Shown one piece after another: positions 17,868 to 35,553 of a DNA stretch of 40,301 nucleotides; position 1 is the first letter of the stretch, and every line of letters starts with the position of its first letter. Source of the stretch: Prevotellaceae bacterium (GTDB taxonomy: Bacteria > Bacteroidota > Bacteroidia > Bacteroidales > Muribaculaceae); contig JAETNS010000022.1 in assembly GCA_021772015.1 (NCBI GenBank), positions 1 to 40,301 on the forward strand, read 5' to 3'. The notes beneath the pieces are model-generated. The model had not been told where the DNA came from. It searched no databases and saw nothing but the letters and a program-made list of their open reading frames with translations. The position numbers and the translations under genes are program-made.

Positions 17868-17897
17868 TGTAAGAAGTGTTATTATCCGGTATTTCTG

Positions 17898-17905
17898 CAA
17901 AGGTA
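17898..17905 (-). promoter_or_regulatory. -7 element for the DUF6377 regulator
   Basis: On the minus strand this reads TACCTTTG, matching TAnnTTTG, about 30 nt before ATG 17867. No well-spaced -33 TTG is visible. It supports the shorter start of the regulator. Confidence 0.5.
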
Positions 17906-17952
17906 ATAAAAAATCAAACAAATCAGCCGCCAGGTAGCTACTTACGCTCCTT

Positions 17953-18161: not shown

Positions 18162-21161
18162 ATGAAAAAATTCTTGCAATTTAAGATTTTCTGGAGGATG
18201 CTCATGGTTGCCGGATTATTATTGCCGGCGCCAAGTCTGTCCGCAGAGGTCGTTAAGGTCTCCGGCGTGGTGACTGATCCTTCGGGGGAGGTTCTCATAG
18301 GAGCAAATGTAAAAGTTGAAAGCGGAGGCAAGGCTGCCACCGTCACGGATGTAGACGGCCGCTATACAATTGACGTAGACAGTAAAGGCAAAATCAAATT
18401 CTCTTATGTGGGCTATGACCCCCAGACGGTAAATGTGGAGGGTCGTAAAAATATAGATGTTGTTCTTTCTGAAAACGAAGTAGCCCTTAACGAGGTCGTT
18501 GTCATCGGTTATGGCACAATAGACAAGAAAGAGCTTACCTCGGCGGTGTCTCATGTCAGCGCCAAGGATTTCCAGTCTGTGGTCTCGACCGATGTCTCGA
18601 TGCTCATCCAGGGGAAAGTCCCCGGTCTGTCTGTGGTCAACACCGCTGAAGCGGATCCTAACAGCAGCGCGAGCCTTCAGATCCGCGGTGTGTCATCACG
18701 CGAAGCCGGCCTTGGCCCGCTGATCGTGCTCGACGGAGTTCCCGGGGCAAGCCTGACCAATATCAACCCCAATGACATCGCCTCGTTTGATGTCCTCAAA
18801 GATGGTGCGGCATCCGCTATATACGGTACGCGAGGTTCCAATGGTGTGATCGTCATCACAACCAAGAAAGGGGCGCAGGACGGCCAGGTGCACACCACCT
18901 ATGCCGCGACCTTCTCATGGGACAAGGCCAACCGCGACTTCGACATGATGGACGCGGAGGACTACCGTAACTGGCGTATCCCCTCCGGCGACCCTTCCGC
19001 TGATCTGGGCGCGAGCGAGGACTGGTTCGATCTGGTATCGCAGGTTGCGTTCAAGCAGTCCCACACCCTTACCATCAGTGGTGGCAACACCAATACAAAC
19101 TACCGCGTCACTGTCGACTACCGTAATGGCGACGGTCTTGCCAAGAAAGGAAACCGTGAGGAATATGGAGGACGCGCCTCTATCAACCATACCACCAAGG
19201 GGGGACTCTTCTCCGTCAATCTCAATATCGCCCCGCGTATTGTCTATCGTACGGATGCAGACAACGATGTTTTCCGCCGCGCGATAGAAGCCAATCCTAC
19301 CAGCCCTATCTGGAATCTCGACGATCCGAGCCGTTACTTCGATTTCTCCGACATCAACGGCTTCGAGAACCCGCTGGAGACAATGGCTCTGGCTGACAAC
19401 CGGACCCAGGAGAAGATCCTTGACTGGAACGCCACAATGAAATTGAATCTGCTTCCGCTGTTCATGCCCAAGGCGAAATACAGCCAGACACTCAATACCC
19501 AGATCACATTCGCCGACCATCAGTATAACAGCGATTACAGCGTTTATGAGCCCTCGACGATGAACAAGCATCTCAAATCGGACAAGAAAGGGTATGGTCA
19601 CCGCAGCTCAAACAATTCCCGCAGCCACAGTCTCGAGTGGCTCGCCAATTATGCGATCTCGATCAAGGACCACAATATCCGCGCTATGCTGGGTTATTCC
19701 TACCAGTACTGGCAGAATTCCGGCCACAGCTCTTCGAACTATGACTTCGCCAACGACGGTATAGGGGCTGACAACCTCGGTTCCGGCGACGGAGCGAAAG
19801 AGGAGGGGGAAGTCTTGATGGACAGCTATAGGAATGACAGCAAGCTGATCGCTTTCTTCGGCCGCGTAAGCTACGACTGGGCAGGCCGCTATCTCTTCAC
19901 CGCCTCCCTGCGTCATGAAGGCTCCTCGAAATTCGGTCAAAACCATAAGTGGGGTAACTTCCCAGCCGTTTCCGCCGGATGGCGTATCTCCGAGGAAAGC
20001 TTTATGGCAGCCACCCGCTCCTGGCTCAATGAGCTGAAAATACGCGCCGACTACGGCGAGACCGGTAATCAGGAGTTCGGAAGCTATATCTCCCTCGACA
20101 CCATGGGCCCGTTTGGTTACAGCCTATATAACGGCCAGTGGGTCAAGGTATGGGGTCCCGGCAAGAATGTCAATCCCGACCTCCATTGGGAGAAAGGACG
20201 TAACTGGAACATCGGACTCGATTTCTCGCTGTTCAACAACCGTCTCTACGGTTCGCTCAACTATTTCAACCGCCGCCAGCAGGATCTGCTCGGTAACTAC
20301 CGCGTACCGATGCCCCCTTATCTGTTCACTCATACTTATGTGAATGTAGGTACGATGAGAAACACCGGTTTTGAATTCGACATCACTTTCGATGCCGTCA
20401 GGACCCGCGACTTCAACTATACGATGAATTTCATAGGCACTACCTCTTCCAACAAGTTCCTCTCCTTCAGTAACTCGAAATATGTGGCCGACGAATACTT
20501 TGATGCCGCCTACACCGAAATACCTTATCCCAATCTCCCCCTCCAGAGGGTAGAGCAGGGTCGCTCGATAGGCAGTTTCTATATGTTCAAATATGCCGGT
20601 TTCGACTCCAACGGTGACTGGCTGATATATGACCGCGACGGCGATATCATCAAGGCCATCTATGGCACACAAGATGACCGCCAGTATGTAGGTAACGGCC
20701 TGCCGAAGTTCACCATGTCGACCTCCCATAATTTCCGTTACAAGAACTTCGACCTCTCGCTCTTCTTCCGCGGAGCCTTCGGATTCGACATCTTCAACAT
20801 CCATGACTTCTATTACGGGACGAGAAACTTCTCCGGCAACATGCTCCGCAAGGCATACCAGAAGAATGTCAATATCTCGCAGACATCCAATCCCGTGGTC
20901 TGCGACTACTTCCTGGAGAGGGGTGACTATTTCAAGCTTGACCAGATCTCTCTGGGCTACACCCTGCCGACCCCCAAGCTCCGGTTCCTCGACAAGGTCC
21001 GTATCTATGGAACTGTAAGAAACGTGTTTACAATCACCAAGTACAGCGGGATGGATCCATCTTACTTCAATGTAAACGGTCTTACCCCTGGTGCGCACGG
21101 CGGCCGCGGTTTCTATCCTACTTCCCGCTCGTTTATCCTCGGACTGCAGATAGATTTCTAA
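18162..21161 (+). CDS. susC: SusC/RagA TonB-dependent transporter
   Basis: This outer-membrane beta-barrel imports oligosaccharides with energy from TonB. The 999-residue product has a signal peptide (to about residue 28) and a carboxypeptidase-regulatory-like domain (about 33-110, VSGVVTDPSGEVLIGANV to DVVLSENEVALNEVVV). The family motif VVIGYGT follows, then a plug domain (about 130-235, IQGKVPGLSVV, IRGVSSREAG, VLDGVPG, SAIYGTRGSNGVIVITTKKG) and a barrel ending in LGLQIDF. There is no extra N-terminal signalling (STN) domain, which fits control by a separate regulator rather than an anti-sigma pair. susD follows after 22 nt. Confidence 0.98.
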   Translation: MKKFLQFKIFWRMLMVAGLLLPAPSLSAEVVKVSGVVTDPSGEVLIGANVKVESGGKAATVTDVDGRYTIDVDSKGKIKFSYVGYDPQTVNVEGRKNIDVVLSENEVALNEVVVIGYGTIDKKELTSAVSHVSAKDFQSVVSTDVSMLIQGKVPGLSVVNTAEADPNSSASLQIRGVSSREAGLGPLIVLDGVPGASLTNINPNDIASFDVLKDGAASAIYGTRGSNGVIVITTKKGAQDGQVHTTYAATFSWDKANRDFDMMDAEDYRNWRIPSGDPSADLGASEDWFDLVSQVAFKQSHTLTISGGNTNTNYRVTVDYRNGDGLAKKGNREEYGGRASINHTTKGGLFSVNLNIAPRIVYRTDADNDVFRRAIEANPTSPIWNLDDPSRYFDFSDINGFENPLETMALADNRTQEKILDWNATMKLNLLPLFMPKAKYSQTLNTQITFADHQYNSDYSVYEPSTMNKHLKSDKKGYGHRSSNNSRSHSLEWLANYAISIKDHNIRAMLGYSYQYWQNSGHSSSNYDFANDGIGADNLGSGDGAKEEGEVLMDSYRNDSKLIAFFGRVSYDWAGRYLFTASLRHEGSSKFGQNHKWGNFPAVSAGWRISEESFMAATRSWLNELKIRADYGETGNQEFGSYISLDTMGPFGYSLYNGQWVKVWGPGKNVNPDLHWEKGRNWNIGLDFSLFNNRLYGSLNYFNRRQQDLLGNYRVPMPPYLFTHTYVNVGTMRNTGFEFDITFDAVRTRDFNYTMNFIGTTSSNKFLSFSNSKYVADEYFDAAYTEIPYPNLPLQRVEQGRSIGSFYMFKYAGFDSNGDWLIYDRDGDIIKAIYGTQDDRQYVGNGLPKFTMSTSHNFRYKNFDLSLFFRGAFGFDIFNIHDFYYGTRNFSGNMLRKAYQKNVNISQTSNPVVCDYFLERGDYFKLDQISLGYTLPTPKLRFLDKVRIYGTVRNVFTITKYSGMDPSYFNVNGLTPGAHGGRGFYPTSRSFILGLQIDF

Positions 21162-21183: not shown

Positions 21184-22911
21184 ATGAAACTATTAAAATA
21201 TATCAGTGCCATCGCTGTTGGTGTCGTCAGCCTTACCGGATGTACGGATCTGGATGAGACGGTGTACAGCGAGGTGTCTTCAAACAACTACTATAACACC
21301 CGCGAGAATGTGATCGCCATGTCGCTGCGCGCTTTCGAGCATGGATACTGGAGCATTGTCCCGCGCTACAACATAAACGAACTCAGTGGTGACCAGATAA
21401 TCACTCCGCGCCGCGACGGAGCCTGGGACGACGGAGGCGTATGGCGTCAGTACCATTACCATACCTGGACCCCCGACATATCGCGCCACATGCATGATGA
21501 ATGGGACGGCTGCTTCGCCGGTATCGGACAGTGCAACTTCGCCATGGAGCAGTTCGACAAGCTGAATCCCGAGAAATTCGGCTTCACCCAGGAGGAATTC
21601 AACTCCCTGAAGACCCAGAACCGTGTACTCCGGTGCTGGTTCTATATCCGTCTTCTCGACGAGTTCCGCAATGTCCCCTTCTCGGTAAGCTACGGTGACC
21701 CCTCGAAGAATTCAATGTCTCAGGTTGATCCCAAGTTCCTCTTCGACTTCATCGAGACCGAACTCAAGGAGTCAATTCCCCTTCTCTTTAAGAAAGAGTC
21801 TCTCGGGAGCGGCCAGAAATATGCCAACCAGTGGACCCAGGCCGGCGCAGCCTCCCTGCTGATGCGTCTTTATCTGAACGCTGAGCAGTATATCGGTGTA
21901 AACCGTCTGGCCGACTGCGAGCAGGTGGCCCAGAATATCGTGGACGGAGTCTACGGCGCATATAAGGTAGCCGATCGCTGGGACGCCCCCTTCGACTATG
22001 ACAACGACACCTGCGACGAGCTGATTTTCTTCTTCTCAGGTTCGCAGTCCTATACCTGCTGGCAGTACACGATGGTCTACAACTGGGGTGTTCCCTGCAA
22101 CTGTTACCTCTATTTTAACAATGCGAGGGTAAAACATGGCGGTCACAACACCCAGTATGCCCTCTCTCCCAGCTATGATCCGACAGGGAAACTCTACGAC
22201 TACAAGCTTGGCATGCCGGTCCAGAAATTCAGGAAATATCCCGGTGATGTACGTCTGAAAAAGTATGTCAACCTCGGAGGTAACAAACGCGAGGGAATGT
22301 TTCTCTATGGTAGCCTTGAGTATAAACAGAATGGAATCACCCGCAAGTTGAAAGCTCCCGAGATGCCCTATGACCTCTGTATCCGTGATGCTGTCGGACA
22401 GTTTCACTTTACCAAGGAGGGCAAATGGCTCTCTTCTCCCGAAAGCAACATGCTCAACGGTGATTACAACTCCGGATGGTATTGTGTGAAATATCCCTTC
22501 TATACCAATGATGACTCCGGAGCCTGTGAGAGCGATTACGCTGAAATCCGTCTTCCCGAAGTGATATATACCTTGGCGGAATGTAAATTGCGCAGAGGCG
22601 ATGTATCGGGAGCTGGCAAGTTGCTCAACAGTGTCCGCCGCCGCAATTATCCGTCGGAGGTCCTCAAAGAGGTCCTTTACGCTCCCGAAGGGAAGGCTGT
22701 CCTCGACATGGATGAGATGCTCGACGAATGGGGCAGGGAATTCCTCTCTGAAGGCCGTCGGCGCGTGGACCTGATTCGTTTCGGCCAGTTCTGCACCGGA
22801 AGATGGTGGGACAAGACACCCGACGAAGGGGATTATACTAAAATCTTCCCGGTTCCGCGTGTACAGATGACCACCAATACCAATCTTGTACAGAATCCCG
22901 GTTATCATTGA
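21184..22911 (+). CDS. susD: SusD/RagB surface glycan-binding lipoprotein
   Basis: SusD proteins form the lid of the SusC channel and bind glycan through an all-helical TPR-based fold. The 575-residue product starts with a lipoprotein signal with Cys at residue 20 (SLTGC), followed by the usual N-terminal pattern (TDLDETVYSEVSSNNYY). It ends with the conserved C-terminal section (EWGREFLSEGRRRVDLIRFG, later KIFPVPRVQMTTNTNLVQNPGY). Many Trp and Tyr residues in the middle could form the binding platform. It lies between susC and the SusE-like gene in the same operon. Confidence 0.97.
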   Translation: MKLLKYISAIAVGVVSLTGCTDLDETVYSEVSSNNYYNTRENVIAMSLRAFEHGYWSIVPRYNINELSGDQIITPRRDGAWDDGGVWRQYHYHTWTPDISRHMHDEWDGCFAGIGQCNFAMEQFDKLNPEKFGFTQEEFNSLKTQNRVLRCWFYIRLLDEFRNVPFSVSYGDPSKNSMSQVDPKFLFDFIETELKESIPLLFKKESLGSGQKYANQWTQAGAASLLMRLYLNAEQYIGVNRLADCEQVAQNIVDGVYGAYKVADRWDAPFDYDNDTCDELIFFFSGSQSYTCWQYTMVYNWGVPCNCYLYFNNARVKHGGHNTQYALSPSYDPTGKLYDYKLGMPVQKFRKYPGDVRLKKYVNLGGNKREGMFLYGSLEYKQNGITRKLKAPEMPYDLCIRDAVGQFHFTKEGKWLSSPESNMLNGDYNSGWYCVKYPFYTNDDSGACESDYAEIRLPEVIYTLAECKLRRGDVSGAGKLLNSVRRRNYPSEVLKEVLYAPEGKAVLDMDEMLDEWGREFLSEGRRRVDLIRFGQFCTGRWWDKTPDEGDYTKIFPVPRVQMTTNTNLVQNPGYH

Positions 22912-22962: not shown

Positions 22963-23424
22963 ATGAAAATATACAAGTTTCTCACTGCTATGGTGATTCT
23001 CCTCCTCGGAACGATGGCGGTAAGTTGTGACGAGGAAAGAGACTATATTCTGATCGAGGGGGAAATTCCTCTGAAGACCTCATCTCTGTATATCATAGGC
23101 GATGCAACCTCTGCTGTCTGGGATATAAACAATCCTGTTCCGCTCGTCAAGAGCGAGGCCGATCCCTGCGTCTTCATCTTTGACGGTTTCCTTGCCCAGG
23201 GTGAAATGAAGGCTTACCTTTCCCCCGGAAGCTTTGACGGCCCATGTATACATCCTCTTACCGCCTGGTCTCCCATAAGTGATGTGGATGTCAAGGGAGA
23301 ACCGATCCAACTCTATTCCGGCGGAGAAGATCTTAAATGGTCTGTAAAGACTGCGGGGCATTACCGTCTGGAGTTTGATCTGCGCAACTGGGTTCTGAAT
23401 ACCACCTATCTCGGTGGCTCCTGA
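22963..23424 (+). CDS. SusE-like single-module surface lipoprotein
   Basis: The 153-residue lipoprotein has Cys at residue 22 (MAVSC) followed by DEERDY; acidic residues right after the Cys resemble the export signal of Bacteroidetes surface lipoproteins. The rest is one SusE/SusF-type beta-sandwich module: SLYIIGDATSAVWDI at the start, VFIFDGFLAQGEMKAYL in the middle, HYRLEFDLRNWVLNTTYL at the end. SusE and SusF have two to three such modules, so this is a minimal version, probably a surface glycan-binding protein. Residues resemble the first module of the proteins at 23468 and 27454. It lies 51 nt after susD. Confidence 0.85.
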   Translation: MKIYKFLTAMVILLLGTMAVSCDEERDYILIEGEIPLKTSSLYIIGDATSAVWDINNPVPLVKSEADPCVFIFDGFLAQGEMKAYLSPGSFDGPCIHPLTAWSPISDVDVKGEPIQLYSGGEDLKWSVKTAGHYRLEFDLRNWVLNTTYLGGS

Positions 23425-23467
23425 TCCGGGCAACTTTTGATGACAAAGTCAGATAACAATGACAATT

Positions 23468-25876
23468 ATGAAAATCAACACGATAAAGAAGTTAGTTTTA
23501 GGTTCCTTGTGCGGCCTCCTTACCCCGGCATTCGTTTGCCGGGGGGAGGGGTCTGCCCTGGAAGTCAGAGCCAACACAGACCTGCCCGTTCCCGGAGAAA
23601 TCCATCATTACAAGGCTCCTCTCTATTGGAGTATCTATGAGTATGCCAGGGAGATGGAGCTTGCCGGTATCCCTTATGGACAGATGGACCTTACGGAAGA
23701 GCAGTGGGACAAGGTAATCGACATGATGGCCACGAAGTTCAAGCCCTATGGCTACGACATGATCTGCACTGACGGTTTCCTTCCCCAGTGGGCTGCCTCC
23801 GGAGAAGTATATATGACGCATTACGGATCGATGTCTTTGAGCAAGCTGGCTGCCAAATGCCGCGCCAAGGGCCTGAAGCTGGGTGTCTATGACAATCCCC
23901 TGTGGATAAAAGGGGAAAGACATCTCAAGGTCCCCGGAACGGACTATACCATCGGCTCGTTGCTGCGTAATGAAAAAGACGAGGTTTTGTATCCGGATGT
24001 TACGGACAGTACCGATTTCACCTGGCTTGTGACCGACCATCCGGGCGCCAGGGAATATATCGACGGATGGTTCAAACATTATCATGACCTGGGAGTTGAA
24101 TTCGTACGTATGGATTTCATGTGCTGGTATGAAGACTCCGACCCGGGACGCGATTATCTTGTTACCTGCGGTTATGGCCGAGAACGTTATGAGCGCGGAC
24201 TGGCATATATCTGCGAGGCTGCCGCCAAATACGGAATCTTCACCTCGATTGTGATGCCTGAGCTTTACAATGACGCGGAACTCGAGAAGAAATACTGCAA
24301 CATGACCCGTATCGTCCAGGACACAAATATCGGCGGCTGGCATCATTTCTCATCCTTCAACCGCGGTACGATCTATAACCGCTGGCCTTATGCCGACAAC
24401 CAGATGGACGGATTCATCCACTGGAGCCATATCGGCGGCCGGGGAAAGATCATCCTTGACGGTGATTTCCTGCGCCTGAACAAATGCAGCAACGACGATG
24501 AACGCCGCTCCCAGGTCTCGCTGCAGATTATAGCCGGCGGTCCGGTGGCGATCGCCGATACTCCGGAGACAATCGGAGACCTTGCTTCGTTCTACACCAA
24601 TGAGGAGCTCCTGGCTCTCCATGAGGATGAATTCGTAGGGAAACCCCTTACCCAGAATCATCTCAGCTCCCGCAGCTGCTACTGGTGGGGGACAACGAGC
24701 CGTGGAGAAGTTGTCCTGGCTATGTTCAACCGCGAAGACAACAACCAGACGATGAGCGTCAATCTGTCGGAACTCAATATGGAAGGGAACTGGCGTGTGC
24801 GCGACTTGTGGACCCATGCTTATGCCGCCACCGGTGTTACCAATGACAATGGCGCGCTGGTTTCGGGAACATTCAGCGCGGATGTACCTCCTCACGGCTG
24901 CAAGGTCGTGAAGTTCCTTCCTGAAAAAGCACCGAAGCCCGACAGGCTGTATATGGTCGGAGTCGCCACTCCCGGTTACTGGGATATCTCAAACGCCAGC
25001 GAGATGACTCTTGAAAACGGAGAGTTTGTCTATCGCGGTCCTCTCTTCAAAGGAGAGGTCAGATTTGTCAGCGAAAGGAATTGGGATTCGATAAACTATA
25101 TTCCTGAAGGAGACAATGGGACATGGCTGACCATTCCGGGCAACGTCTATGCCTTCAATGGAGATCCGCATGAATTTGCCAGGCATTGGTGGGTAAATGA
25201 TGTGGGAACCTATGAAGTAAGGATGAAGGTTGACGAATCAGGGAACAATGCTTCGCTTTCAGCCGTACGTATCGGAGATCTTCCATCCATGATGACCGTG
25301 TTGGGAGCATCGAGCGGCACCTGGGACAATCAAACCGCCCATACAGTCTACGCTTCCGCCGACCAACCCGATATCCTTGAATGGAAAGGTGTGATACGTC
25401 CTGATGACAGACGTTGTCATATAAAGTTCGCCGCATTTCCGGCTCCGTGGTGGGAATCCACATTCTATATCCCGGAGACTGTCGACTACAATGGTAATGT
25501 GAAGATGGTCAAGCCCGGAGAGACATATAATTACCGGGAGGAATACGGTGGGGTAAGCGACCATTTCTGGGGCGTGGAGCCTCAGGATTGCGGATTCTTC
25601 CGCGTGACGGTCAACAAGGCTGCCAAGACGGTTACATTCTCCAATAATAATGTGAGCGGCAATGAGCAGGTTGTGTCCGTGCCTTCTGGGAGACTTGACT
25701 CCAGGTTCGTCGGCAATACCCTGTATGTGGACTCAGAAGGAAAGACCGTCGCCGTATACAATATCTACGGACAGCGTCTGGGCTTCTCGAACGATGGTCG
25801 TCTGATTGTGGAAGGGCTTCCGAACGGGACATATATCATAAAGAGCGATAACGCGGTGTGCAAGATCGCGCGATGA
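23468..25876 (+). CDS. GH27-like enzyme fused to tandem SusE-like modules and T9SS tail
   Basis: The 802-residue secreted protein looks like a clan GH-D (GH27-type) alpha-glycosidase. The likely nucleophile is D216 (FVRMDFMCWYEDSD). The likely acid/base is D285 in MTRIVQDTNIGGWHHF, which has the R-x3-D-x4-W spacing of GH27. GGPVAIADTPETIG leads to a C-terminal beta-domain ending near residue 480. Two SusE-like modules follow (about 491-598, LYMVGVATPGYWDIS; about 607-733, TVLGASSGTWDN), then a T9SS type A-like tail (VAVYNIYGQRLG, then GLPNGTYIIKSDN). The signal region lacks a clear lipobox, so export by T9SS is plausible. ATG 23468 is preferred to ATG 23459 because it directly precedes KINTIKKLVLG. 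GH27 includes alpha-galactosidases and isomaltodextranases; I cannot choose the substrate. The catalytic part is a close paralogue of the next gene. Confidence 0.85.
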   Translation: MKINTIKKLVLGSLCGLLTPAFVCRGEGSALEVRANTDLPVPGEIHHYKAPLYWSIYEYAREMELAGIPYGQMDLTEEQWDKVIDMMATKFKPYGYDMICTDGFLPQWAASGEVYMTHYGSMSLSKLAAKCRAKGLKLGVYDNPLWIKGERHLKVPGTDYTIGSLLRNEKDEVLYPDVTDSTDFTWLVTDHPGAREYIDGWFKHYHDLGVEFVRMDFMCWYEDSDPGRDYLVTCGYGRERYERGLAYICEAAAKYGIFTSIVMPELYNDAELEKKYCNMTRIVQDTNIGGWHHFSSFNRGTIYNRWPYADNQMDGFIHWSHIGGRGKIILDGDFLRLNKCSNDDERRSQVSLQIIAGGPVAIADTPETIGDLASFYTNEELLALHEDEFVGKPLTQNHLSSRSCYWWGTTSRGEVVLAMFNREDNNQTMSVNLSELNMEGNWRVRDLWTHAYAATGVTNDNGALVSGTFSADVPPHGCKVVKFLPEKAPKPDRLYMVGVATPGYWDISNASEMTLENGEFVYRGPLFKGEVRFVSERNWDSINYIPEGDNGTWLTIPGNVYAFNGDPHEFARHWWVNDVGTYEVRMKVDESGNNASLSAVRIGDLPSMMTVLGASSGTWDNQTAHTVYASADQPDILEWKGVIRPDDRRCHIKFAAFPAPWWESTFYIPETVDYNGNVKMVKPGETYNYREEYGGVSDHFWGVEPQDCGFFRVTVNKAAKTVTFSNNNVSGNEQVVSVPSGRLDSRFVGNTLYVDSEGKTVAVYNIYGQRLGFSNDGRLIVEGLPNGTYIIKSDNAVCKIAR

Positions 25877-25918
25877 TTGATCTCTTTCTTACTCAAAAAC
25901 ATTTGAAATATTTGGAAA

Positions 25919-27370
25919 ATGATCTCGAATTATCTGAAAACATTCGCGTTATGCGGAATACTTGCGCTTAGTGTATCCTGCGGTGACGATAAAAATGGGA
26001 ACGAGCCGGAGATTCCCACTCCGCCTCCGACTCCTGTGCCGGAACTTCCCGAGCTTCCGGAGCCGGGTGAGATACATAACTACAAGGCTCCGCTCTATTG
26101 GTCTGTATATGAGTATGCCAGGGAGATGGAGATAGCCGGTGTACCTTATGGAGATATGGATCTAACAACTGCCCAGTGGGACGCCATAATCGACATGATG
26201 GCTACGAAATTCAAGCCATATGGTTATGACATGATATGCACCGACGGTTTCCTTCCCCAGACATCGCGTGACGGGAGCGGATATATGTCACACTATGGCT
26301 CGATGCCTCTGAAGGAGCTGGTAAGGCGCGCGAAAGAGAAGGGCCTGAAGGTCGGGGTGTATGACAATCCCTTGTGGATCAAAGGGAATCTTGACCAGAA
26401 AGTCCCCGGCACAAACTATACCTTGCGGTCGCTGCTCCGTAATCCCCAGGATAAAGTGCTTTACCCCAATGTCACCACTGATAACACTTTTACATGGTGT
26501 GTGACCGATCATCCCGGTGCCAGGGAATATATCGACGGTTTCTTCAAGCACTATCATGATATGGGTGTCGACTTCGTGCGCATGGACTTCATGTGCTGGT
26601 ATGAGGATTCCGATCCGGGTCGTGACTACCTGGTCTCCTGCGGCTATGGCCGCGAGCGTTATGAGCGCGGACTGGCGTATATCTGCGAATCGGCTGCCAA
26701 ATATGGGGTTTTCACTTCGATCGTGATGCCTGAGCTATACAATGACGCGGAACTTGAGAAGAAGTACTGCAATATGACCCGTATTGTGCAGGATACCAAT
26801 ATCGGCGGTTGGCATCATTTCTCCTCCTTCAACCGTGGTGTGACTTACAAACGCTGGCCCTATGCCGACAACCAGATGGACGGCTTCACCTATTGGAGCC
26901 ATATCGGGGTGCGTGGAAAGATCATCCTTGACGGCGACTTCCTGCGCCTGAACAAATGCAGCAGCGACGATGAGCGTCGCTCGCAGGTTTCACTGCAGCT
27001 TATCGCCGGAGGGCCGGTTGCGATCGCCGACACTCCTGAAACCATCGGTGATCACGGTAAATTCTATACCAACGAGGAGCTTCTGGCTCTGAACATAGAC
27101 AGATTCGTAGGGAAGCCCCTTTCGGATGTCGTCAACAGCGAAGGAAGTAATATCTGGTATGGAACGATGAGCAACGGCGATGTCGTGCTGGCGATGTTCA
27201 ACCGTGAGGACAATTCACGGAATATGAGTGTGACTCTCTCCGAACTGGGCCTTTCGGGATCCTACAAAGTGCGTGACCTCTGGGAGCACGCCGACGAAGG
27301 GACCGTTGAAACTGCTTTTACCGCTCCCGTGCCCAGGCATGGCTGCAAGGTGGTTAAGCTTACGAAATGA
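25919..27370 (+). CDS. GH27-like surface lipoprotein enzyme
   Basis: The 483-residue product has a lipoprotein signal (LALSVSC, Cys21) followed by GDDKNGNE and a Pro-rich spacer (about 30-47), as expected for an enzyme tethered outside the cell. From GEIHNYKAPLYWSVYEYA onward it parallels the preceding protein almost residue for residue. It has the same presumed nucleophile (D223 in RMDFMCWYEDSD) and acid/base (D292 in RIVQDTNIGGWHH), and ends with the beta-domain (RHGCKVVKLTK). It has no SusE-like modules and no T9SS tail. The two genes differ mostly at third codon positions in the conserved blocks, so the duplication is not recent. The next gene encodes the missing modules separately. Confidence 0.85.
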   Translation: MISNYLKTFALCGILALSVSCGDDKNGNEPEIPTPPPTPVPELPELPEPGEIHNYKAPLYWSVYEYAREMEIAGVPYGDMDLTTAQWDAIIDMMATKFKPYGYDMICTDGFLPQTSRDGSGYMSHYGSMPLKELVRRAKEKGLKVGVYDNPLWIKGNLDQKVPGTNYTLRSLLRNPQDKVLYPNVTTDNTFTWCVTDHPGAREYIDGFFKHYHDMGVDFVRMDFMCWYEDSDPGRDYLVSCGYGRERYERGLAYICESAAKYGVFTSIVMPELYNDAELEKKYCNMTRIVQDTNIGGWHHFSSFNRGVTYKRWPYADNQMDGFTYWSHIGVRGKIILDGDFLRLNKCSSDDERRSQVSLQLIAGGPVAIADTPETIGDHGKFYTNEELLALNIDRFVGKPLSDVVNSEGSNIWYGTMSNGDVVLAMFNREDNSRNMSVTLSELGLSGSYKVRDLWEHADEGTVETAFTAPVPRHGCKVVKLTK

Positions 27371-27372
27371 AA

Positions 27373-27405
27373 CCTGTGGGGAACATCGGTGCACAGGTGT
27401 TCCCC
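27373..27405 (+). other. Two overlapping, mutually exclusive hairpins between operon genes
   Basis: GGGGAACA (27378-27385) pairs with TGTTCCCC (27398-27405). CCTGTG (27373-27378) pairs with CACAGG (27392-27397), which lies in the loop of the first hairpin. The two stems share only base 27378, so they can compete or form a pseudoknot. There is no T-run, so it is not a plain terminator. It lies 3 nt after the stop of the lipoprotein enzyme and could protect or partially end the transcript. Confidence 0.5.
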
Positions 27406-27453
27406 CGCAGATTCAAATAACTCAAATAACAAATCCTATTAACCTTAAATGTG

Positions 27454-28479
27454 ATGAAACTACATTTACTTAACAGCATGGCTGCCGGCGCGGCGTTGCT
27501 GCTCGGATCGGCTCTCGCAACAGCCGCAATACCGGAACATCTCTATATGGTCGGGGAAGCATCCCCCTCTCTCTGGCATATTGATGTCGCTACTGAAATG
27601 ACAAACGAAGGGGACGGCATGTTCTCCTACCGCGGCACTCTCTACAAGCAGAATCTCCAGTTCATCGACGCACGCAACTGGGACGGTGTAAGGTATGTAC
27701 CTGAAGTAAGCGGGTGGCATCTTACAGAAGCCAACAACGCAACCATCCTCAGCGAGGTTGGAAATGAAAACCGTTTTTGGGTACTCGAGCCTGGAACGTA
27801 TGAGGTCAAGGTATTCTTTGGCGATGACGGCAACAGCGTAATGATCACCGCCGCGTGGGTCGATGAGATGGCTCCCCTGGTTTGTCCTCTGGGTGGAGCA
27901 AGCGGCCAGTGGGACAGTGCAAGCGTCCATCCCAGCTTCAACATCTATCCTGAAGAAGGGACTGAGGATCTCTTCGTCTATGAGACAACCTTCGCTCCCG
28001 GCTGTGATGGCAAGCATCTGAAGTTTATCTCTTACCCCTGCAACTGGTGGGAGACATGGTTCTACTGCCCCACGGAGACCGACAACGGGGTAGTGAAGTT
28101 CGTCAAGTACGGCGACAAGCTTCCTGTCCGTCGTGCTTGGAATGACGGTCGTCTGGATGAGTTCTGGGGCTTTGCCGATGAGGACTGCACTCCCGAAAAG
28201 AAGGTGAAGGTTGTCCTGAATCTCGCCGACGACACCATTGAGTTCATCGACCCGTCGCAGCAGAGTGGCGTTGACGATATCGATGCCGCAGCTTCCATGA
28301 AGGCTTCCTTTGTCGGAGACGCTCTCGTTGTCGAGGGTGCTCAGGCTCCTGTCGCCGTCTATGATATCGCAGGCCGTCAGGTTGCATCCTCTGCAATAGG
28401 ATCATTCTCTGTCGACGGTCTCACCAATGGTGTATATGTGGTAAAAACCGCAGACAACGCTGTGAAAGTCTCCAAATAA
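27454..28479 (+). CDS. Secreted tandem SusE-like module protein with T9SS tail
   Basis: This 341-residue exported protein has no catalytic domain. After a signal peptide (AAGAALLLGSALATA) come two SusE-like modules (about 29-136, LYMVGEASPSLWHID; about 143-269, LGGASGQWDSASVHPSF) and a T9SS type A-like tail (VAVYDIAGRQVA, then GLTNGVYVVKTADNAVKV). The order and many residues (RNWD, YVPE, CNWWETWFYCPTETD, EFWGF) match residues 491-802 of the protein encoded at 23468. It is thus a free-standing copy of that enzyme's C-terminal half, probably a secreted or surface glycan-binding protein. ATG 27454 is taken in preference to the adjacent GTG 27451. A strong terminator follows 15 nt after the stop. 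Confidence 0.85.
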   Translation: MKLHLLNSMAAGAALLLGSALATAAIPEHLYMVGEASPSLWHIDVATEMTNEGDGMFSYRGTLYKQNLQFIDARNWDGVRYVPEVSGWHLTEANNATILSEVGNENRFWVLEPGTYEVKVFFGDDGNSVMITAAWVDEMAPLVCPLGGASGQWDSASVHPSFNIYPEEGTEDLFVYETTFAPGCDGKHLKFISYPCNWWETWFYCPTETDNGVVKFVKYGDKLPVRRAWNDGRLDEFWGFADEDCTPEKKVKVVLNLADDTIEFIDPSQQSGVDDIDAAASMKASFVGDALVVEGAQAPVAVYDIAGRQVASSAIGSFSVDGLTNGVYVVKTADNAVKVSK

Positions 28480-28629: not shown

Positions 28630-29616
28630 ATGTATAAGATTGCCATCATATTGTTGTCGCTGATGCCGGGGCTGGTTTCGCCGGCTGCCGTCAGGGAGTT
28701 GTCGGAGATCAATATCCGCGATCCGTTTATTCTGGCCGATTCGCTCTCGAAGCAATATTATATGTATCGTACATCAGATTCGATACTTCCCGATGGGAGT
28801 GTGAGAGGAGGCGTGGAGGTGTTTCGCAGCCCTGATCTTAAGCATTGGGAGGGTCCGCAACTTGTTATGCGTGTTCCGGACGGGAATGCTCTGACCGGTA
28901 CAGTCTGGGCCCCAGAGGTGCATGAATACAATGGCGCGTACTATCTTTTCGCAACCATCAATAGTGATCTGAAATGGAAGAAAAACCGTCCCGGGTGGGG
29001 GGATTATACATTTCGTGGAACGCAGATATTCCGCGCCGATTCTCCTGAAGGTCCCTTCAAGCCGTTCGGCAGGTTCCCCCATACGCCGTTGGATTATATG
29101 GCGTTGGACGGCACATTGTGGGTTGAGGATGGCAAACCCTATATGGTATTCTGTCATGAATGGGTACAACTGGAGGATGGAACCATGGAGGTCGTGGAGC
29201 TATCGCCGGATCTTTCCAATACAGTCGGCAGGCCGGAGGTGCTTTTCAATGGCTCCACGCCTGATTGGTCAACCGGCATAAGGCCGTCGGAGGGGATGCC
29301 TTTGGGATATATTACTGACGGTTGCTTCCTTTACCGTAACAAGGAAGGAAAACTAATCATGATCTGGTCGAGTTTCAGCAATGGCGACTATGCCATCGGA
29401 GTTTCTGAATCAACGACAGGATCGGTGAAAGGCCCTTGGATCCATCATAAGGATCCTCTGTTTCCGGACAACGGAGGACACGGGATGATTTTCAAGACAT
29501 TTGACGACCGCTTGTGTCTTATACTCCACCAGCCCAACAGCCCGCTCGGAGCCGAACGGGCCAGAATATTTGAAATTGAAGATGACGGAAACACTCTTAA
29601 CCTAAAACCTGAATAA
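28630..29616 (+). CDS. GH43 family beta-propeller glycosidase
   Basis: The 328-residue exported enzyme has the five-bladed propeller pattern of GH43 (mostly alpha-L-arabinofuranosidases, beta-xylosidases and related exo-enzymes). The usual three acidic residues can be placed: base D31 in NIRDPFI, pKa modulator D160 in MALDGTLW, acid E221 in RPSEGMPLGYITDG. Their spacing is normal for the family. The signal peptide (IAIILLSLMPGLVSPAA) has no lipobox, so it is probably periplasmic. It is the first gene after the strong terminator and begins the second block of the locus. The substrate cannot be read from the sequence. Confidence 0.88.
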   Translation: MYKIAIILLSLMPGLVSPAAVRELSEINIRDPFILADSLSKQYYMYRTSDSILPDGSVRGGVEVFRSPDLKHWEGPQLVMRVPDGNALTGTVWAPEVHEYNGAYYLFATINSDLKWKKNRPGWGDYTFRGTQIFRADSPEGPFKPFGRFPHTPLDYMALDGTLWVEDGKPYMVFCHEWVQLEDGTMEVVELSPDLSNTVGRPEVLFNGSTPDWSTGIRPSEGMPLGYITDGCFLYRNKEGKLIMIWSSFSNGDYAIGVSESTTGSVKGPWIHHKDPLFPDNGGHGMIFKTFDDRLCLILHQPNSPLGAERARIFEIEDDGNTLNLKPE

Positions 29617-29677: not shown

Positions 29678-31696
29678 ATGAAAGCGATCCATTTTTGTGT
29701 GCTGGCAGTCTCGTTATTGCCGGCAGCCCACAGTGTTGCTGCCAGACAATACCAGATTGCGTCTCCCTCCGGTAAAATCACCGCGAATATCGACTGCGGG
29801 GAGAGCATGAGCTATTCCGTGAATTACGACGGGAAGGAAATTCTATCAAGTTCACCTATCTCGATGAAGCTATCCGACGGAACCGTCTGGGGTGAGAATG
29901 CCAAGGTCTCGAAAGCAGTCAGGGAATCCCGGGCAACAACTGTCGAAAGTCCGTTTTCGCAGGCTTCGCATATCACTGACTGTTACAATGGCCTGACCTT
30001 ACGCATGAAGGATGGATGGAGCGTGGAGTTCCGCGCCTATGATGACGGTATCAGCTATCGTTTTGCAAGCTCGCGGCAAACACCATATGAGATAGTCGCC
30101 GAACAGGCTGATTTCAATTTCCCCGGCGACTATACGGCTACTGTGCCATATGTCCGCACAGGGTCAGACGATGACATGCAGTCACAGTTTTTCAACTCTT
30201 TTGAAAACTATTACACGGTAAAAAAACTGTCGGAACTTAATCCCCGGCGGCTGGCGTTCCTGCCGTTGTCTGTGGATGCCGACGGAGTGACGGTCGCGAT
30301 CACCGAAACCGATCTTAACGATTACCCGGGATTGTATCTTTATAATCCCGAGGGCAGCTGTTCTCTTAAAAGCAAGCACGCGCCTTATCCGACAAAAACC
30401 GTTGACGGAGGCTATAACAACATACAGTCGGTAGTAGCAGAGACAGCTGACTATATAGCGAACGTGGATAGACCGCGCTCTTTCCCCTGGCGCATCATAA
30501 TGCTTGGTTCCGACACGGATATCGCCTCCTGCAATCTAAGTTATATCCTTGCCGAGCCGTCGCGGATCGCCGATATATCATGGATAAAACCAGGGAAAGT
30601 GGCCTGGGAATGGTGGAACGACTACAACATTACGGGCGTTGACTTTGAAGCGGGACATAACACCCCCACATATAAGCACTATATCGACTTTGCCTCGGAA
30701 AACAACATAGAATATGTGATCCTGGATGACGGATGGGCTGCCGGAAAAGGGGAGGACCTGTTGGTTCTCAACCCGGATATTGATCTCAAGGAGATCATAA
30801 CGTATGCCGACGGAAAGGATGTGGGGATAATTCTATGGGCTGGTTTCAGGGCGTTTGAGCGGGATCTCGAAAATGTATGCCGTCATTATTCCGAAATGGG
30901 TGTAAAGGGGTTCAAAGTTGACTTCGAGGACCGTGATGACCAGCTTATGACGGCGTTCAACCATCATGCCGCAGAAGTTGCCGCGAAATATCATCTTATC
31001 CTTGACTTGCACGGAGTTTACAAACCTGCGGGTATCAACCGTACGTGGCCTAATGTGCTTAATAATGAAGGGGTAAACGGTCTGGAGAATATGAAGTGGA
31101 CGGAGCTTGACCGTTTCGATATCATCCAGTACAATACGGAGCTTCCATTCCTGCGGCAGGTCTCCGGCCCGGTCGATTACACTCAGGGAGCTATGGTAAA
31201 CGCCCCCCGGCATAATTTCCGCCCGATAAACAGTCAGCCTATGTCTCCGGGTACCAGGGCGCATCAGCTGGCGCTGTATATGGTGCTTTACTCTCCGCTG
31301 AACATGCTATGCGATTCTCCCACAAATTATCGCAAGGAGCAGGAATGCACGGATTTCATAGCCGCCATCCCTACAGTCTGGGACGAGACAATTGTGCTTG
31401 ACGGCAAATTGGGGGAATATATCGTGACTGCCAGGAGAAAAGGTGACGACTGGTATATTGGTGGGATCACAAACTGGACTCCCCGCGAACTGACTGTAGA
31501 TCTCGCGCGGCTGAACATACCGCAGGGAGCAACTATGACCCTTTTCTCTGACGGCACCAACGCTCACCGCAACGGCAACGATTACTGCCGGACCACGGCG
31601 ATGGTGGATCCTTCCGTTCCGCTGACCGTCCGCCTCGCGCCCGGAGGGGGCTTTGCCGCCCATATCGGGGAAACCTCTTTTGCAGACAATCGTTGA
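29678..31696 (+). CDS. GH97 glycosidase, retaining (alpha-galactosidase) type
   Basis: The 672-residue protein has the GH97 layout: signal peptide, N-terminal beta-sandwich (about 25-290), TIM barrel (VAWEWWNDYNITGVDF to SPLNMLCDSPTNY) and C-terminal beta-domain. GH97 has an inverting branch (SusB-like alpha-glucosidases, Glu base) and a retaining branch (alpha-galactosidase/beta-L-arabinopyranosidase, Asp nucleophile). Here GFKVDFEDRDDQ places D415, and LDLHGVYKPAG with NNEGVNGLENMKW places E470. From memory these equal the nucleophile and acid/base numbering of the retaining enzyme BtGal97b. The HG in place of HE also fits the retaining branch. Probably periplasmic. It lies 61 nt after GH43 in the same run. 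Confidence 0.93.
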   Translation: MKAIHFCVLAVSLLPAAHSVAARQYQIASPSGKITANIDCGESMSYSVNYDGKEILSSSPISMKLSDGTVWGENAKVSKAVRESRATTVESPFSQASHITDCYNGLTLRMKDGWSVEFRAYDDGISYRFASSRQTPYEIVAEQADFNFPGDYTATVPYVRTGSDDDMQSQFFNSFENYYTVKKLSELNPRRLAFLPLSVDADGVTVAITETDLNDYPGLYLYNPEGSCSLKSKHAPYPTKTVDGGYNNIQSVVAETADYIANVDRPRSFPWRIIMLGSDTDIASCNLSYILAEPSRIADISWIKPGKVAWEWWNDYNITGVDFEAGHNTPTYKHYIDFASENNIEYVILDDGWAAGKGEDLLVLNPDIDLKEIITYADGKDVGIILWAGFRAFERDLENVCRHYSEMGVKGFKVDFEDRDDQLMTAFNHHAAEVAAKYHLILDLHGVYKPAGINRTWPNVLNNEGVNGLENMKWTELDRFDIIQYNTELPFLRQVSGPVDYTQGAMVNAPRHNFRPINSQPMSPGTRAHQLALYMVLYSPLNMLCDSPTNYRKEQECTDFIAAIPTVWDETIVLDGKLGEYIVTARRKGDDWYIGGITNWTPRELTVDLARLNIPQGATMTLFSDGTNAHRNGNDYCRTTAMVDPSVPLTVRLAPGGGFAAHIGETSFADNR

Positions 31697-34025: not shown

Positions 34026-35546
34026 ATGAAAATATTAAAAACAATATTGTCGCTGGCCATCAGCTTTTTTGCGATGGAAGCAGCAGCAACGGATATCGCC
34101 AATTTCAGCAGATATGAGGATGACAACGAGCGTATAATGGCTCTTCCGAATACAGGCACGCGCGTGGTGTTCATGGGTAACTCCATTACCGACTTCTGGC
34201 CTACAACTCGACCTGAATTTTTCGTTCTGAATGATTTTGTCGGGCGAGGCATTGCCGGACAGACCTCTTTTGAGATGCTTATGCGTTTCCGTGAGGATGT
34301 AGTGCGTCTCAATCCGGCCGGAGTGGTTATCGCAGCCGGGACAAATGATATCGCCCAGAATCTCTATCCGTGGTATGATGAAGAGCGTACGCTGGGCAAT
34401 ATCCTGTCGATGGCGGAAATCGCCCAGGCCAACAATATTCAGGTTTTTCTTGCTTCAGTACTCCCTGTCAGCAGTTTTGACTGGAATCCGACCATCACCA
34501 ACCATGAGGACAAGATCGAAAGCCTCAATGCCCGTATAAAGGAGTATGCCGATGCTCATGATATCCCTTACGTAGACTATTATTCAGCTATGGTTTATGG
34601 AGACCGGGATCTCAACTACGGTTTTTCCAATGATGGGGTGCATCCCAATGAGGATGGCTACAGGGTCATGGAGGGAATTCTTCTCCCGATTATCCGGGAA
34701 CGTATCCGGTTTGAGGGAAGTGTAATTCCCGAAACCGTTGAGCTTTGGGGTACGGCTATAGCGGAGGATAATCCCGTAATGTGTACGAAAGTATCTGTCA
34801 CCAGTTTTGAGGCATTTGTCGAGCTTAAGGCGGGTGGAATGCTCTCTGTTAAGAATGAGAAAGATGTCATTTTCTCCATTTATGACAATATGATCAAAGA
34901 AAACGGAATGCCTATGCGTATCCAGAAAGACGGCGTGTATTGTATTTCCCTTGATTTCCTTAACAAAGTATCTTCTGTAAAGGAGGTTACGGATATGTGT
35001 GTCCTGAATTGCTTTACAAGGAAGAGCATGGCGGATCTGTCATATGCCGGCAATGGGGAATGGACCGGAGACTGGACACTTGATTTCAATATGCCTTGGG
35101 GAACTGAAAACCGGTACCGAATGATGATGACAATTGACGGAGAGAAGGTTTACTGGGGGCCTACATTCGGGGCCGACAATGGAGAGCCTGATGGTTCGGA
35201 CAGCTATTTTGAGATGATGCGTGTGGTTCCGGCAAATACATGGGCCAATACCTGGCGTATGCCGCTAAGCATGGAGGGGAAAACCGTCAAGGTCACAGCT
35301 GTCCTCCGCGGCAAGTACACCCACCGTTACAGCGATAAGTCATCTTTGCCCCGCGTTGAGGTCAAGCCTTCCCGCATCATAGCCAACGATCAGGCGAAGA
35401 TTGTATGTCTGGCTGACGCTGTCATTTATGACACCTCCGGCCTGGCAGTCGCTTCTGTAAAGGCCGGGGAAATCATAAATCTCTCCGAAGGGGTGTATAT
35501 TGCCAAGTCAGGAACGATTGTCGAGAAATTTGTAATCAAGAAATGA
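34026..35546 (+). CDS. SGNH/GDSL esterase with SusE-like modules and T9SS tail
   Basis: The 506-residue exported protein begins with an SGNH hydrolase domain (about 27-235). It contains nucleophile S53 in MGNSITDFW, block III GTND (106-108 TND) and the catalytic pair D203/H206 in SNDGVHPNEDGY, as in carbohydrate acetylesterases and related lipases. The middle (about 236-445) is beta-rich and resembles SusE/SusF-type modules (VELWGTAIAEDNPVM; later NRYRMMMTIDGEKVYWGPTF). The end is a T9SS type A-like tail (AVIYDTSGLAVAS, then LSEGVYIAKSG, then KFVIKK). Surface or secreted location would make it a de-acylase acting before import. The GH31 frame begins within 10 nt of its stop, so they share a transcript. 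Confidence 0.88.
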   Translation: MKILKTILSLAISFFAMEAAATDIANFSRYEDDNERIMALPNTGTRVVFMGNSITDFWPTTRPEFFVLNDFVGRGIAGQTSFEMLMRFREDVVRLNPAGVVIAAGTNDIAQNLYPWYDEERTLGNILSMAEIAQANNIQVFLASVLPVSSFDWNPTITNHEDKIESLNARIKEYADAHDIPYVDYYSAMVYGDRDLNYGFSNDGVHPNEDGYRVMEGILLPIIRERIRFEGSVIPETVELWGTAIAEDNPVMCTKVSVTSFEAFVELKAGGMLSVKNEKDVIFSIYDNMIKENGMPMRIQKDGVYCISLDFLNKVSSVKEVTDMCVLNCFTRKSMADLSYAGNGEWTGDWTLDFNMPWGTENRYRMMMTIDGEKVYWGPTFGADNGEPDGSDSYFEMMRVVPANTWANTWRMPLSMEGKTVKVTAVLRGKYTHRYSDKSSLPRVEVKPSRIIANDQAKIVCLADAVIYDTSGLAVASVKAGEIINLSEGVYIAKSGTIVEKFVIKK

Positions 35547-35553
35547 TATGATA

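Follow-up and report, generated by a model that had tools for sequence, protein, structure and literature searches.

The locus described here raises the question of how a fused enzyme-module gene and separate genes equivalent to its two halves came to stand next to each other, and whether one chemistry is thereby delivered in two ways. The window, meaning the whole stretch of 40,301 nucleotides that was analysed, belongs to a gut bacterium and carries two copies of a polymer-cutting enzyme side by side.

Organisation of the locus

The fused, lipoprotein and module genes are open frames at the coordinates given below, within a polysaccharide utilization locus (PUL); mechanical ORF calling starts the fused and module genes slightly upstream, at 23459 and 27451, respectively. 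The following features were found in the window:

915..8444, + strand: SprA/Sov, which forms the outer-membrane translocon in type IX secretion systems (T9SS); outside the PUL (TIGR04189, 2671.8 bits)
18162..21161, + strand: SusC-type TonB-dependent transporter, with which the PUL begins (Pfam TonB barrel, plug, CarbopepD_reg_2)
21184..22911, + strand: SusD-type glycan-binding protein (Pfam SusD_RagB)
22963..23424, + strand: short single-module SusE-like protein (Pfam SusF_SusE E 9e-4, below cut-off)
23468..25876, + strand: fused gene, with leader, GH27 barrel, Melibiase_C subdomain, two SusE-like modules and T9SS-type tail
25919..27370, + strand: lipoprotein-type GH27 enzyme (lipobox SVSC at residues 18-21, then GDDKNGNE)
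27454..28479, + strand: module protein, with secretory-type leader (by eye), two SusE-like modules and T9SS-type C-terminal domain, without catalytic domain
28630..29616, + strand: GH43 enzyme (Pfam Glyco_hydro_43; the one PDB match at 1e-10, 5c0p, bears the name Endo-arabinase)
29678..31696, + strand: GH97 enzyme, alpha-galactosidases nearest (PDB 3a24 E 6e-267, 5e1q E 1e-266)
31746..33968, + strand: GH3 enzyme (Pfam)
34026..35546, + strand: GDSL-type esterase (Pfam)
35548..37857, + strand: GH31 enzyme (PDB 7wj9, E 7e-122)
37860..39677, + strand: GH2 enzyme, near 7sf2 and a beta-D-galactofuranosidase

The SusC proteins of the sister loci L048-L051 and L107 are 74-79% identical to that of the window. 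The SusE position in related PULs is mostly occupied by proteins of three to five modules, with two modules in L111.

The fused protein and its separate counterparts

Pfam, fold and alignment confirmed that the gene at 23468 encodes a GH27-like domain, two SusE-like modules and a T9SS-like tail. The limits are residues 1-42 for the leader, 43-400 for the barrel, 401-485 for Melibiase_C, about 491-725 for the modules and about 741-802 for the tail. The enzyme at 25919 and the module protein at 27454 match the two halves in order and in their parts, far beyond chance. The catalytic domains had been described as near-identical in the first-pass annotation, which holds for the middle of the barrel (residues 184-370, 172/187 identical, 92%) and not for the whole enzyme, where BLASTP aligned 345/481 identical residues (72%, 716 bits). 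Identity is 28% in the leader (11/39), 81% in the barrel (fused residues 43-400, 291/358) and 60% in the C-terminal subdomain 401-485 (45/75). The module blocks have diverged much more than the catalytic domains: the modules and tail of the fused protein share 111/329 residues with the module protein (34%, E 2e-54), against 81% for the barrel.

Leader classes were assigned by pattern and by eye. The fused leader is without the usual lipobox, and the motif TPAF[VL]CRGE or a near variant is retained in fused-type leaders of three genomes. When this pattern was run over the window's genome, no gene matched besides the fused gene, so the motif is not widely used as an export leader in this genome. 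In the split enzyme, the pattern search found the SVSC lipobox with its cysteine. Acidic residues after the lipobox cysteine mark surface export.

Family and fold of the catalytic domain

Both enzymes are GH27 members by their barrel and C-terminal beta sandwich, in sequence and in fold. Pfam Melibiase_C is over cut-off in both; Melibiase_2 scores 23.2 in the lipoprotein enzyme (cut-off 23), and the fused protein has no listed Melibiase_2 match. By sequence, the solved enzyme closest to the split enzyme is isomaltodextranase 5awo (E 1e-70, over 5awo residues up to about 465), which is also the first fold match to the AlphaFold model of the fused protein (mean pLDDT 81.4, E 3e-34). In the split enzyme, D223 and D292 are aligned with 5awo aspartates, and their counterparts in the fused protein are D216 and D285; by analogy with GH27 enzymes in general, these are candidates for the catalytic pair. 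The catalytic residue numbers expected for 5awo did not fit the aligned 5awo row, and the residues are therefore given by alignment. This Arthrobacter globiformis isomalto-dextranase (GH27) is the best match by sequence and fold, over about 430 residues, but identity in the fold alignment is 26% and its specificity is not transferable. Release of isomaltose from dextran is at most hinted at by sequence kinship, and the neighbouring GH97, GH2 and GH43 enzymes point to a possible mixed polymer.

Modules, tail and type IX secretion

Pfam SusF_SusE scores 33.0 bits in the module protein and 23.1 bits in the fused protein, the latter below the cut-off of 27.5. The best sequence match of the module protein is SGBPdex BT3088 (E 4e-9). 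Its AlphaFold model (mean pLDDT 72.0) finds SusE 4fch first (E 1e-5), with a TM of 0.34 by target and an rmsd of 15.5, the two modules failing to superpose as a pair. Por_Secre_tail is a weak Pfam match in the same protein, and the model also matches, more weakly, the C-terminal domain of a T9SS cargo, 5hfs (E 0.029, prob 1.00), with an rmsd of 1.4 over 51 columns of the tail. With TIGR04183 (cut-off 23), the tail of the module protein passes at 26.4 bits when scored in the genome frame, but stays just short at 21.8 bits when scored alone. The tail of the fused gene remains below that cut-off both alone (17.2 bits) and in the genome frame (20.8 bits), as do the tails of its orthologues in G713 (16.9 bits) and L048 (17.3 bits).

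The type IX machinery is present in the same genome as the fused gene. SprA (2671.8 bits), GldN (182.3), PorU (876.6) and PorV (483.4) are over cut-off, and TIGR04183 gives 34 tail matches at E 0.01, thirteen of which are marked over cut-off. These genes, together with the leader and tail signals, are consistent with the earlier suggestion that one chemistry may be delivered in two ways.

The adjacent short SusE gene was considered as the source of the module blocks, but this origin found no support. A module profile gives the window's copy 15.4 bits and the short SusE proteins of L049, L083 and L084 36.9-40.4 bits, whereas multi-module SusE proteins reach up to 166. Since the five blocks supplied the profile, their own scores (>500) are no test.

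Related loci

The fused-plus-split arrangement recurs in other genera. In the window's family the locus is patchy, with matches at E 1e-30 in 49 out of 397 genomes, and only G000 and G222 among the 397 have modules and enzyme in one row. The genome G713, from another family of the order, possesses both GH27 formats on a single contig, in the order SusC, SusD, short SusE, GH27 with lipobox (frameshifted), module protein (600 aa), fused protein (796 aa), module protein (319 aa), GH43, GH97, GDSL, GH31 and GH2. Isolate G222 of the window's family (locus L048) also carries both formats; its fused gene is truncated, reads on from SusD and is without the leader and the first barrel part. The presence of both formats in G713 and in this isolate indicates that the duplication is old. 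Locus L049 encodes one hybrid enzyme, in which the leader is of the fused type and the C-terminus of the split type. G278 has one lipoprotein GH27, and G258 one enzyme of the lipoprotein type that runs off the end of its contig. Within the window's clade, an intact fused gene was found at two loci only, the window and G713.

A second fusion in G222 and G459, where open frames of 844 and 821 aa appeared for the split pair, was ruled out; a TAA lies between the two split genes in the L048 DNA, and the L049 ORF list ends the enzyme before the module gene. The distant relative G729 possesses a GH27 with a CBM35 module, without lipobox by eye.

Phylogeny and probable gene conversion

The catalytic domains fall in one clade at 100/100 (7 rows, 6 genes) and the module blocks are likewise related; the placement in unrelated clades that the first-pass annotation named as a refutation was not found. 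BLASTP matches the fused modules to the module protein at E 2e-55, and the best SusE-type protein among the matches listed reaches 4e-12. The shared clade and the matching blocks support the duplication proposed earlier.

Across genomes, modules and C-terminal subdomains group by format, and barrels are alike within genomes. The modules of three fused genes separate from those of six split module units at 100/100, and pairing by genome is rejected for the modules (p-AU 5e-8) and for the C-terminal subdomain (p-AU 0.0029; not rejected without G713, p-AU 0.131). Trees of barrel parts give conflicting, partly weak placings. The G713 barrels share a block in which 27 of 1153 columns differ, with flanks 45% and 50% identical. 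Those of L048 share a block in which 10 of 351 columns differ, with 68.2% identity outside and a run of 79 identical variable sites that is reached in 0/10,000 shuffles. The best block of the window's barrels has 29 differences over 251 columns, with 68.5% identity outside, and orthologues are likewise alike in that stretch. For all three pairs the search for near-identical blocks was run without an orthologue control. The longest run in the window, 11 sites, is reached in 117/10,000 shuffles (79/10,000 in the second set), these being uncorrected per-pair figures among 15 and 10 pairs, and the run of a cross-genome pair, the window's fused gene versus L049, in 55/10,000. We read the near-identical blocks as probable gene conversion of the catalytic core between formats, of which the window itself appears to hold a weak, hardly seen signal.

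Between the window and G713, dN/dS of the fused gene is about 0.08 for barrel and modules, with module dS near saturation (dS is saturated in 4/8 comparisons), which suggests purifying selection on the fused gene.

Origin of the fused gene

Duplication followed by fission, or fusion of duplicated halves, had been proposed at first. The duplication stands, fusion after it is favoured, though not proven, and a recent fission is unlikely. Among the 37 GH27 leaders examined, a set that includes the window's two, 35 are lipoprotein-like as read, and the lipoprotein format therefore looks ancestral. The script's own leader pattern also gives 35/37 but disagrees on two rows. The count covers rows above 250 bits to the fused catalytic domain (thus without G134, G147 and fragments, among others) that start within residue 15 of that domain (thus without the truncated fused gene of L048).

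The fused gene could instead be a decaying duplicate of little use, and the arrangement neutral churn of a tandem repeat, as the truncated fused gene of G222/L048 reading on from SusD, the single hybrid enzyme of L049 and the frameshifted lipoprotein copy of G713 might suggest. We consider this unlikely: intact fused genes occur in two families with the low dN/dS given above, the window retains both candidate catalytic aspartates (D216 and D285, by alignment and by analogy with GH27), and fused-type leaders in three genomes keep TPAF[VL]CRGE or a close form.

Fission would make the fused gene ancestral, one duplicate having split into lipoprotein enzyme and module protein, each gaining a leader. 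Multimodular T9SS-tailed enzymes do occur in a distant clade, in G938 and G1160, and since the G1160 enzyme lies outside the G938 pair, this format can be old. The N-terminal trees also place the window's fused gene and the L049 hybrid outside the lipoprotein types, with SH-aLRT/bootstrap values of 89.5/66 and 83.4/63, and 86.6/79 and 79.8/79 in the second set. Nevertheless, two new leaders would be required while 35/37 leaders are lipoprotein-like as read, the 34 out-clade members of the 41-row tree derive from ORFs of 460-502 aa, which leaves no room for a module block, and the split enzyme ends as the single-copy enzyme of L050 does, with no linker remnant. Fission is thus improbable.

Horizontal transfer, by which an already fused second enzyme landed beside an existing one that it merely resembles, would suit the patchy locus (49/397 genomes) but is very improbable, because both catalytic domains share one 100/100 clade, the module blocks are closer to each other than to SusE-type proteins among the matches listed, and gene order travels along with enzymes and modules. 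The PUL may have been transferred as a whole, which leaves the reading of fusion after duplication unchanged.

Proposed history and working

We suggest that the starting point was a PUL with a stand-alone GH27 lipoprotein, in an ancestor that several Bacteroidales genera have in common or from which they received the locus by transfer. To this PUL a SusE-like module protein, secreted and carrying a type IX tail, would have been added. The GH27 gene would then have duplicated, one copy losing the lipobox and becoming joined, in frame, to a duplicate of the gene for modules plus tail, and both formats would since have been retained adjacent. Conversion between the neighbouring copies may have repeatedly homogenised the barrel, while leader, C-terminal subdomain and modules, the parts predicted to set destination and what the enzyme holds, would evolve by format. 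The whole explanation, from duplication and fusion to conversion of the barrel, appears probable to us.

The lipoprotein enzyme would sit on the outer membrane beside the SusC/SusD importer. The fused enzyme is predicted to exit by the type IX system and cut polymer held by its own two modules, and the module protein to be exported in the same way as a pure binder. The pieces cut from the putative substrate, an alpha-glucan-like or mixed polymer, may enter via SusC/SusD and be finished by the GH43, GH97, GH3, GH31 and GH2 enzymes. Because a single operon retains this core in both forms, presumably to some benefit, the effect of delivery can be tested with nearly constant catalysis; the G713 barrels, almost identical in DNA, would suit this comparison.

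More tentatively, and with some doubt, recurrent conversion may maintain one core under two forms of delivery within an operon, and the dual format may have arisen repeatedly in Bacteroidota, in the window's clade and in that of G938. If so, active-site changes would be common to membrane-anchored and type IX-exported enzymes, and leader, end subdomain and modules would be spared and specialise by format. A confirmed conversion would provide a bacterial case of paralogue exchange sparing the parts that set localisation.

Comparison with known systems

According to PMC5127042, the key surface enzyme is lipid-anchored beside SusC/SusD in most PUL models. The B. thetaiotaomicron dextran utilisome Bt3087-Bt3090 (PMC7618045) and FjDexUL of F. 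johnsoniae (PMC10316084) combine, as here, SusC/SusD, a GH enzyme and a SusE-like/SGBP binder at the outer membrane. The outer-membrane enzyme there is, in contrast, a GH66, and the text available of both papers describes no T9SS-tailed enzyme copy ("type IX" has 0 occurrences in PMC10316084). In Zobellia, AlyA1 is an extracellular alginate lyase and PL7 lyases are duplicated, and the available portions of this literature (PMC4936053, PMC9296495, PMC8073546) contain no fused-plus-split case.

G938 (L109), which shares only the phylum Bacteroidota, encodes a lipoprotein-type GH27 of 478 aa and, about 8 kb apart, a second GH27, of 1149 aa, whose T9SS tail scores 45.1 bits. Between its catalytic part and tail, the latter has about 600 residues with no Pfam match at E 0.01. 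The pair is 73% identical and sister at 100/98. A lipoprotein-type and a T9SS-tailed GH27 lie near each other as in the window, but in a separate clade.

The first-pass annotation knew of no described case with this arrangement, which is too wide. As far as the accessible text of PMC5127042 goes, the Flavobacterium johnsoniae chitin locus encodes a T9SS-secreted multimodular ChiA and a predicted surface lipoprotein ChiB of the same GH family. As in the window, one PUL holds a T9SS enzyme with a binding region and a lipoprotein enzyme; ChiA differs in having two GH18 domains, each likened to a Serratia enzyme other than that of ChiB, and the same text describes neither a separate copy of the ChiA binding region nor conversion. 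Dual delivery thus has a precedent in ChiA/ChiB, and the conversion pattern is the newer part.

Locus organisation

The window, contig C47 in a genome of 2.86 Mb, harbours a polysaccharide utilization locus (PUL) with the gene order SusC, SusD, single-module SusE-like, fused gene, lipoprotein enzyme, module protein, GH43, GH97, GH3, GDSL, GH31 and GH2. The first-pass annotation had described a fused gene followed by its two halves as separate genes, and reading of the ORFs confirmed the positions of all three.

Features of the window
11574-16145: protein of 1523 aa, flanked by the SprA region and the PUL
16269-17921, minus strand: DUF6377 protein, adjoining SusC of the PUL
18162-39677: PUL, all genes on one strand
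22963-23424: single-module SusE-like gene
23468-25876: fused gene (GH27 barrel, Melibiase_C subdomain, two SusE-like modules, T9SS-type tail)
25919-27370: lipoprotein GH27 enzyme
27454-28479: module protein (two SusE-like modules and tail)

SusE is down to one module in the clade of the window (22963-23424), compared with mostly three to five at the equivalent place in related PULs and two in locus L111. Relatives of the DUF6377 protein (27-53% identity) are present in 18 of the fetched GH27 loci and absent from L084 and L107; the protein is perhaps a dedicated regulator. The 1523 aa protein had no Pfam matches at E 0.01 and no NCBIfam matches at E 0.1. Contig C21 of the same genome possesses a second PUL, with a GH27 55% identical to the catalytic domain of the fused protein and a GH97 27% identical to that of the window PUL.

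Predicted function and export

The top sequence match of the catalytic domain among solved structures is the A. globiformis isomaltodextranase (E 1e-70), which is also first in the fold search with the AlphaFold model of the fused protein (mean pLDDT 81.4). The module protein matches Pfam SusF_SusE above cut-off, and its strongest sequence match is SGBPdex BT3088 (E 4e-9); SusE is the first fold match of its model, with poor superposition of the module pair. With the type IX secretion system (T9SS) tail model TIGR04183, the module protein scores near or over the cut-off of 23 bits and the fused protein under it. In the fold search, the modelled tail of the module protein resembles the C-terminal domain of T9SS cargo 5hfs (E 0.029). 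The T9SS components SprA (inside the window), GldN, PorU and PorV are present in the genome, and PMC4936053 reports T9SS in most of the S24-7 genomes that it covered.

The kinship of the GH27 domain and the modules suggests an alpha-1,6-glucan as substrate. However, GH97 is nearest to alpha-galactosidases, GH2 to 7sf2 and a beta-D-galactofuranosidase, GH43 to a structure entry named endo-arabinase, and GH31 to 7wj9, with the entry name alpha-xylosidase, which we take to be an alpha-1,3-glucosidase. Given these kinships, a mixed polymer would be likelier than plain dextran.

Distribution among relatives

With the fused protein as query, matches were found in 49 of 397 family genomes, 10 of 111 genomes of the genus of G222 (Isolate-036, of the same family as the window) and 17 of 49 of that of G278 at E 1e-30, and, at E 1e-40, in 7 of 393 order-level and 3 of 395 phylum-level genomes; these sets overlap, and the family, order and phylum sets count the window's own genome. 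With the split enzyme as query, matches at E 1e-3 appeared in 31 of the 99 relatives searched, and one search of genome contigs gave four loci.

An intact fused gene was found in the window and in G713, a single-contig genome of another family of the same order. In G222 it is truncated and in frame with SusD (L048:6394-9957), forming one frame of 1187 aa with SusD, partial barrel, modules and tail. Compared with the arrangement in locus L049 of G459, about 1 kb is deleted, which brings SusD up against the mid-part of the fused GH27 gene. The G222 fused gene lacks part of the barrel and is likely inactive. L049 encodes a sole enzyme with fused-type leader and N-terminal half and split-type end, followed by a module protein. 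L050 (G278) and L051 (G258) each show a single enzyme of lipoprotein type; no module gene was found in L050, and the L051 sequence stops within the enzyme. One G713 module protein (L107:13623-15425) is doubled to four modules (600 aa), with halves 59% identical.

Between the window and G713 fused genes, dN/dS is about 0.08 for the modules (dS 4.11) and the barrel (dS 1.49), whereas the end subdomain gives 0.17 (dS 1.72); four of the eight comparisons yielded no value, owing to saturation. The fused-type leaders of three genomes (window 23468-23575, L049:10345-10440, L107:15461-15590) have residues in common. Their odd motif (TPAFVCRGE, APAFLCRGG and TPAFLCRGE) conserves a cysteine without the usual lipobox, and a DNA pattern for it occurs once in the window's genome.

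Proposed gene conversion of the barrel

The catalytic halves of the fused protein and the lipoprotein enzyme share 345 of 481 residues (BLASTP), and the module halves are 34% identical over 329. Identity to the lipoprotein enzyme is 28% in the leader, 81% in the barrel (92% in residues 184-370) and 60% in the C-terminal subdomain, an unequal divergence that was pursued in the conversion analysis.

Module blocks group by format: the fused blocks of the window, L048 and G713 separate from six split units with 100/100 support. Pairing of the blocks by genome was rejected (p-AU 5e-8; 1.5e-35 in a five-row set). The C-terminal subdomain also groups by format with G713 (p-AU 0.0029), non-significantly without it (p-AU 0.131). 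In contrast, barrel copies are alike within a genome. Taking the best-scoring block per pair, without orthologue control, the G713 copies have 27 differences (one a gap) in 1153 shared columns, the L048 pair 10 in 351 (68.2% identity outside) and the window pair 29 in 251 (68.5% outside). The G713 block covers codons 42-425 of the fused gene, slightly into the C-terminal subdomain, with flanks 45% (120 columns) and 50% (158) identical. Third positions in 60-codon segments of the L048 pair are 98% and 88% identical, against 40-45% in adjoining segments; those of the window pair, at 70% and 60%, barely exceed orthologous pairs. In uncorrected shuffle tests the L048 pair scored 0/10,000 and the window pair 117/10,000 in one set and 79/10,000 in another; the window fused gene and L049, which come from different genomes, reached 55/10,000.

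We read these patterns as barrel conversion that would be recent in G713, fairly recent in G222, and old or doubtful in the window. The L049 enzyme looks like another product of exchange between copies, unless the MAG assembly is chimeric. The reading frame of the G713 lipoprotein-type GH27 (L107:11993-13539) is broken where an A run within the near-identical block differs by one base, which may be sequencing error, decay or phase variation.

Which format is older

The first-pass annotation had suggested that the two catalytic domains could stem from a duplication, with later fission or with fusion of the duplicated halves. Both domains fall inside one clade (100/100) of seven rows, representing six genes with one counted twice, in a GH27 tree of 41 rows (44 sequences extracted, three under 300 aa dropped). 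Leaders were read as lipoprotein-like in 35 of 37, the window's two included; the exceptions are the window's fused gene and L049. This count covers rows above 250 bits to the fused catalytic domain (leaving out G134, G147 and fragments, among others) that start by its residue 15 (leaving out the truncated L048 fused gene). A pattern script also gave 35 of 37, but missed L043 and accepted a site within the L049 hydrophobic core. Because of this predominance, the stand-alone lipoprotein is likely the older format, from which the fused gene would derive. Nevertheless, in N-terminal trees the L049 hybrid and the fused gene of the window branch outside the clade's lipoprotein types, at weak to moderate support, which could reflect fast evolution or an older duplication; the G713 fused barrel pairs with its own lipoprotein copy (94.7/97). 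The GH27 of the distant relative G729, with a CBM35 module and by eye without lipobox, also counts against the lipoprotein-first reading.

Comparison with known systems

G938, a distant Bacteroidota genome listed as sharing no rank below phylum, encodes in locus L109 a lipoprotein-type GH27 and a T9SS-tailed GH27 (45.1 bits, over cut-off) about 8 kb apart, 73% identical and sisters at 100/98. The GH27 of G1160 has a SusE-like match under cut-off and a T9SS tail over it (27.5 bits). Taken with the G1160 enzyme, the G938 pair indicates that the predicted dual delivery, or at any rate the T9SS format, recurs among GH27 enzymes.

The first-pass annotation knew of no described case. In the literature searched, fused and separate homologous halves together, with format-wise orthology and homogenised cores, were indeed not found, but dual delivery is known: in a F. 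johnsoniae PUL described in PMC5127042, the T9SS secretes ChiA, which has a binding region, and ChiB is a predicted lipoprotein. Dual delivery within one PUL, as proposed for the window, is shared with ChiA/ChiB; the part that would be new is the pairing of a fused gene with separate halves, their format-wise orthology and their homogenised cores.
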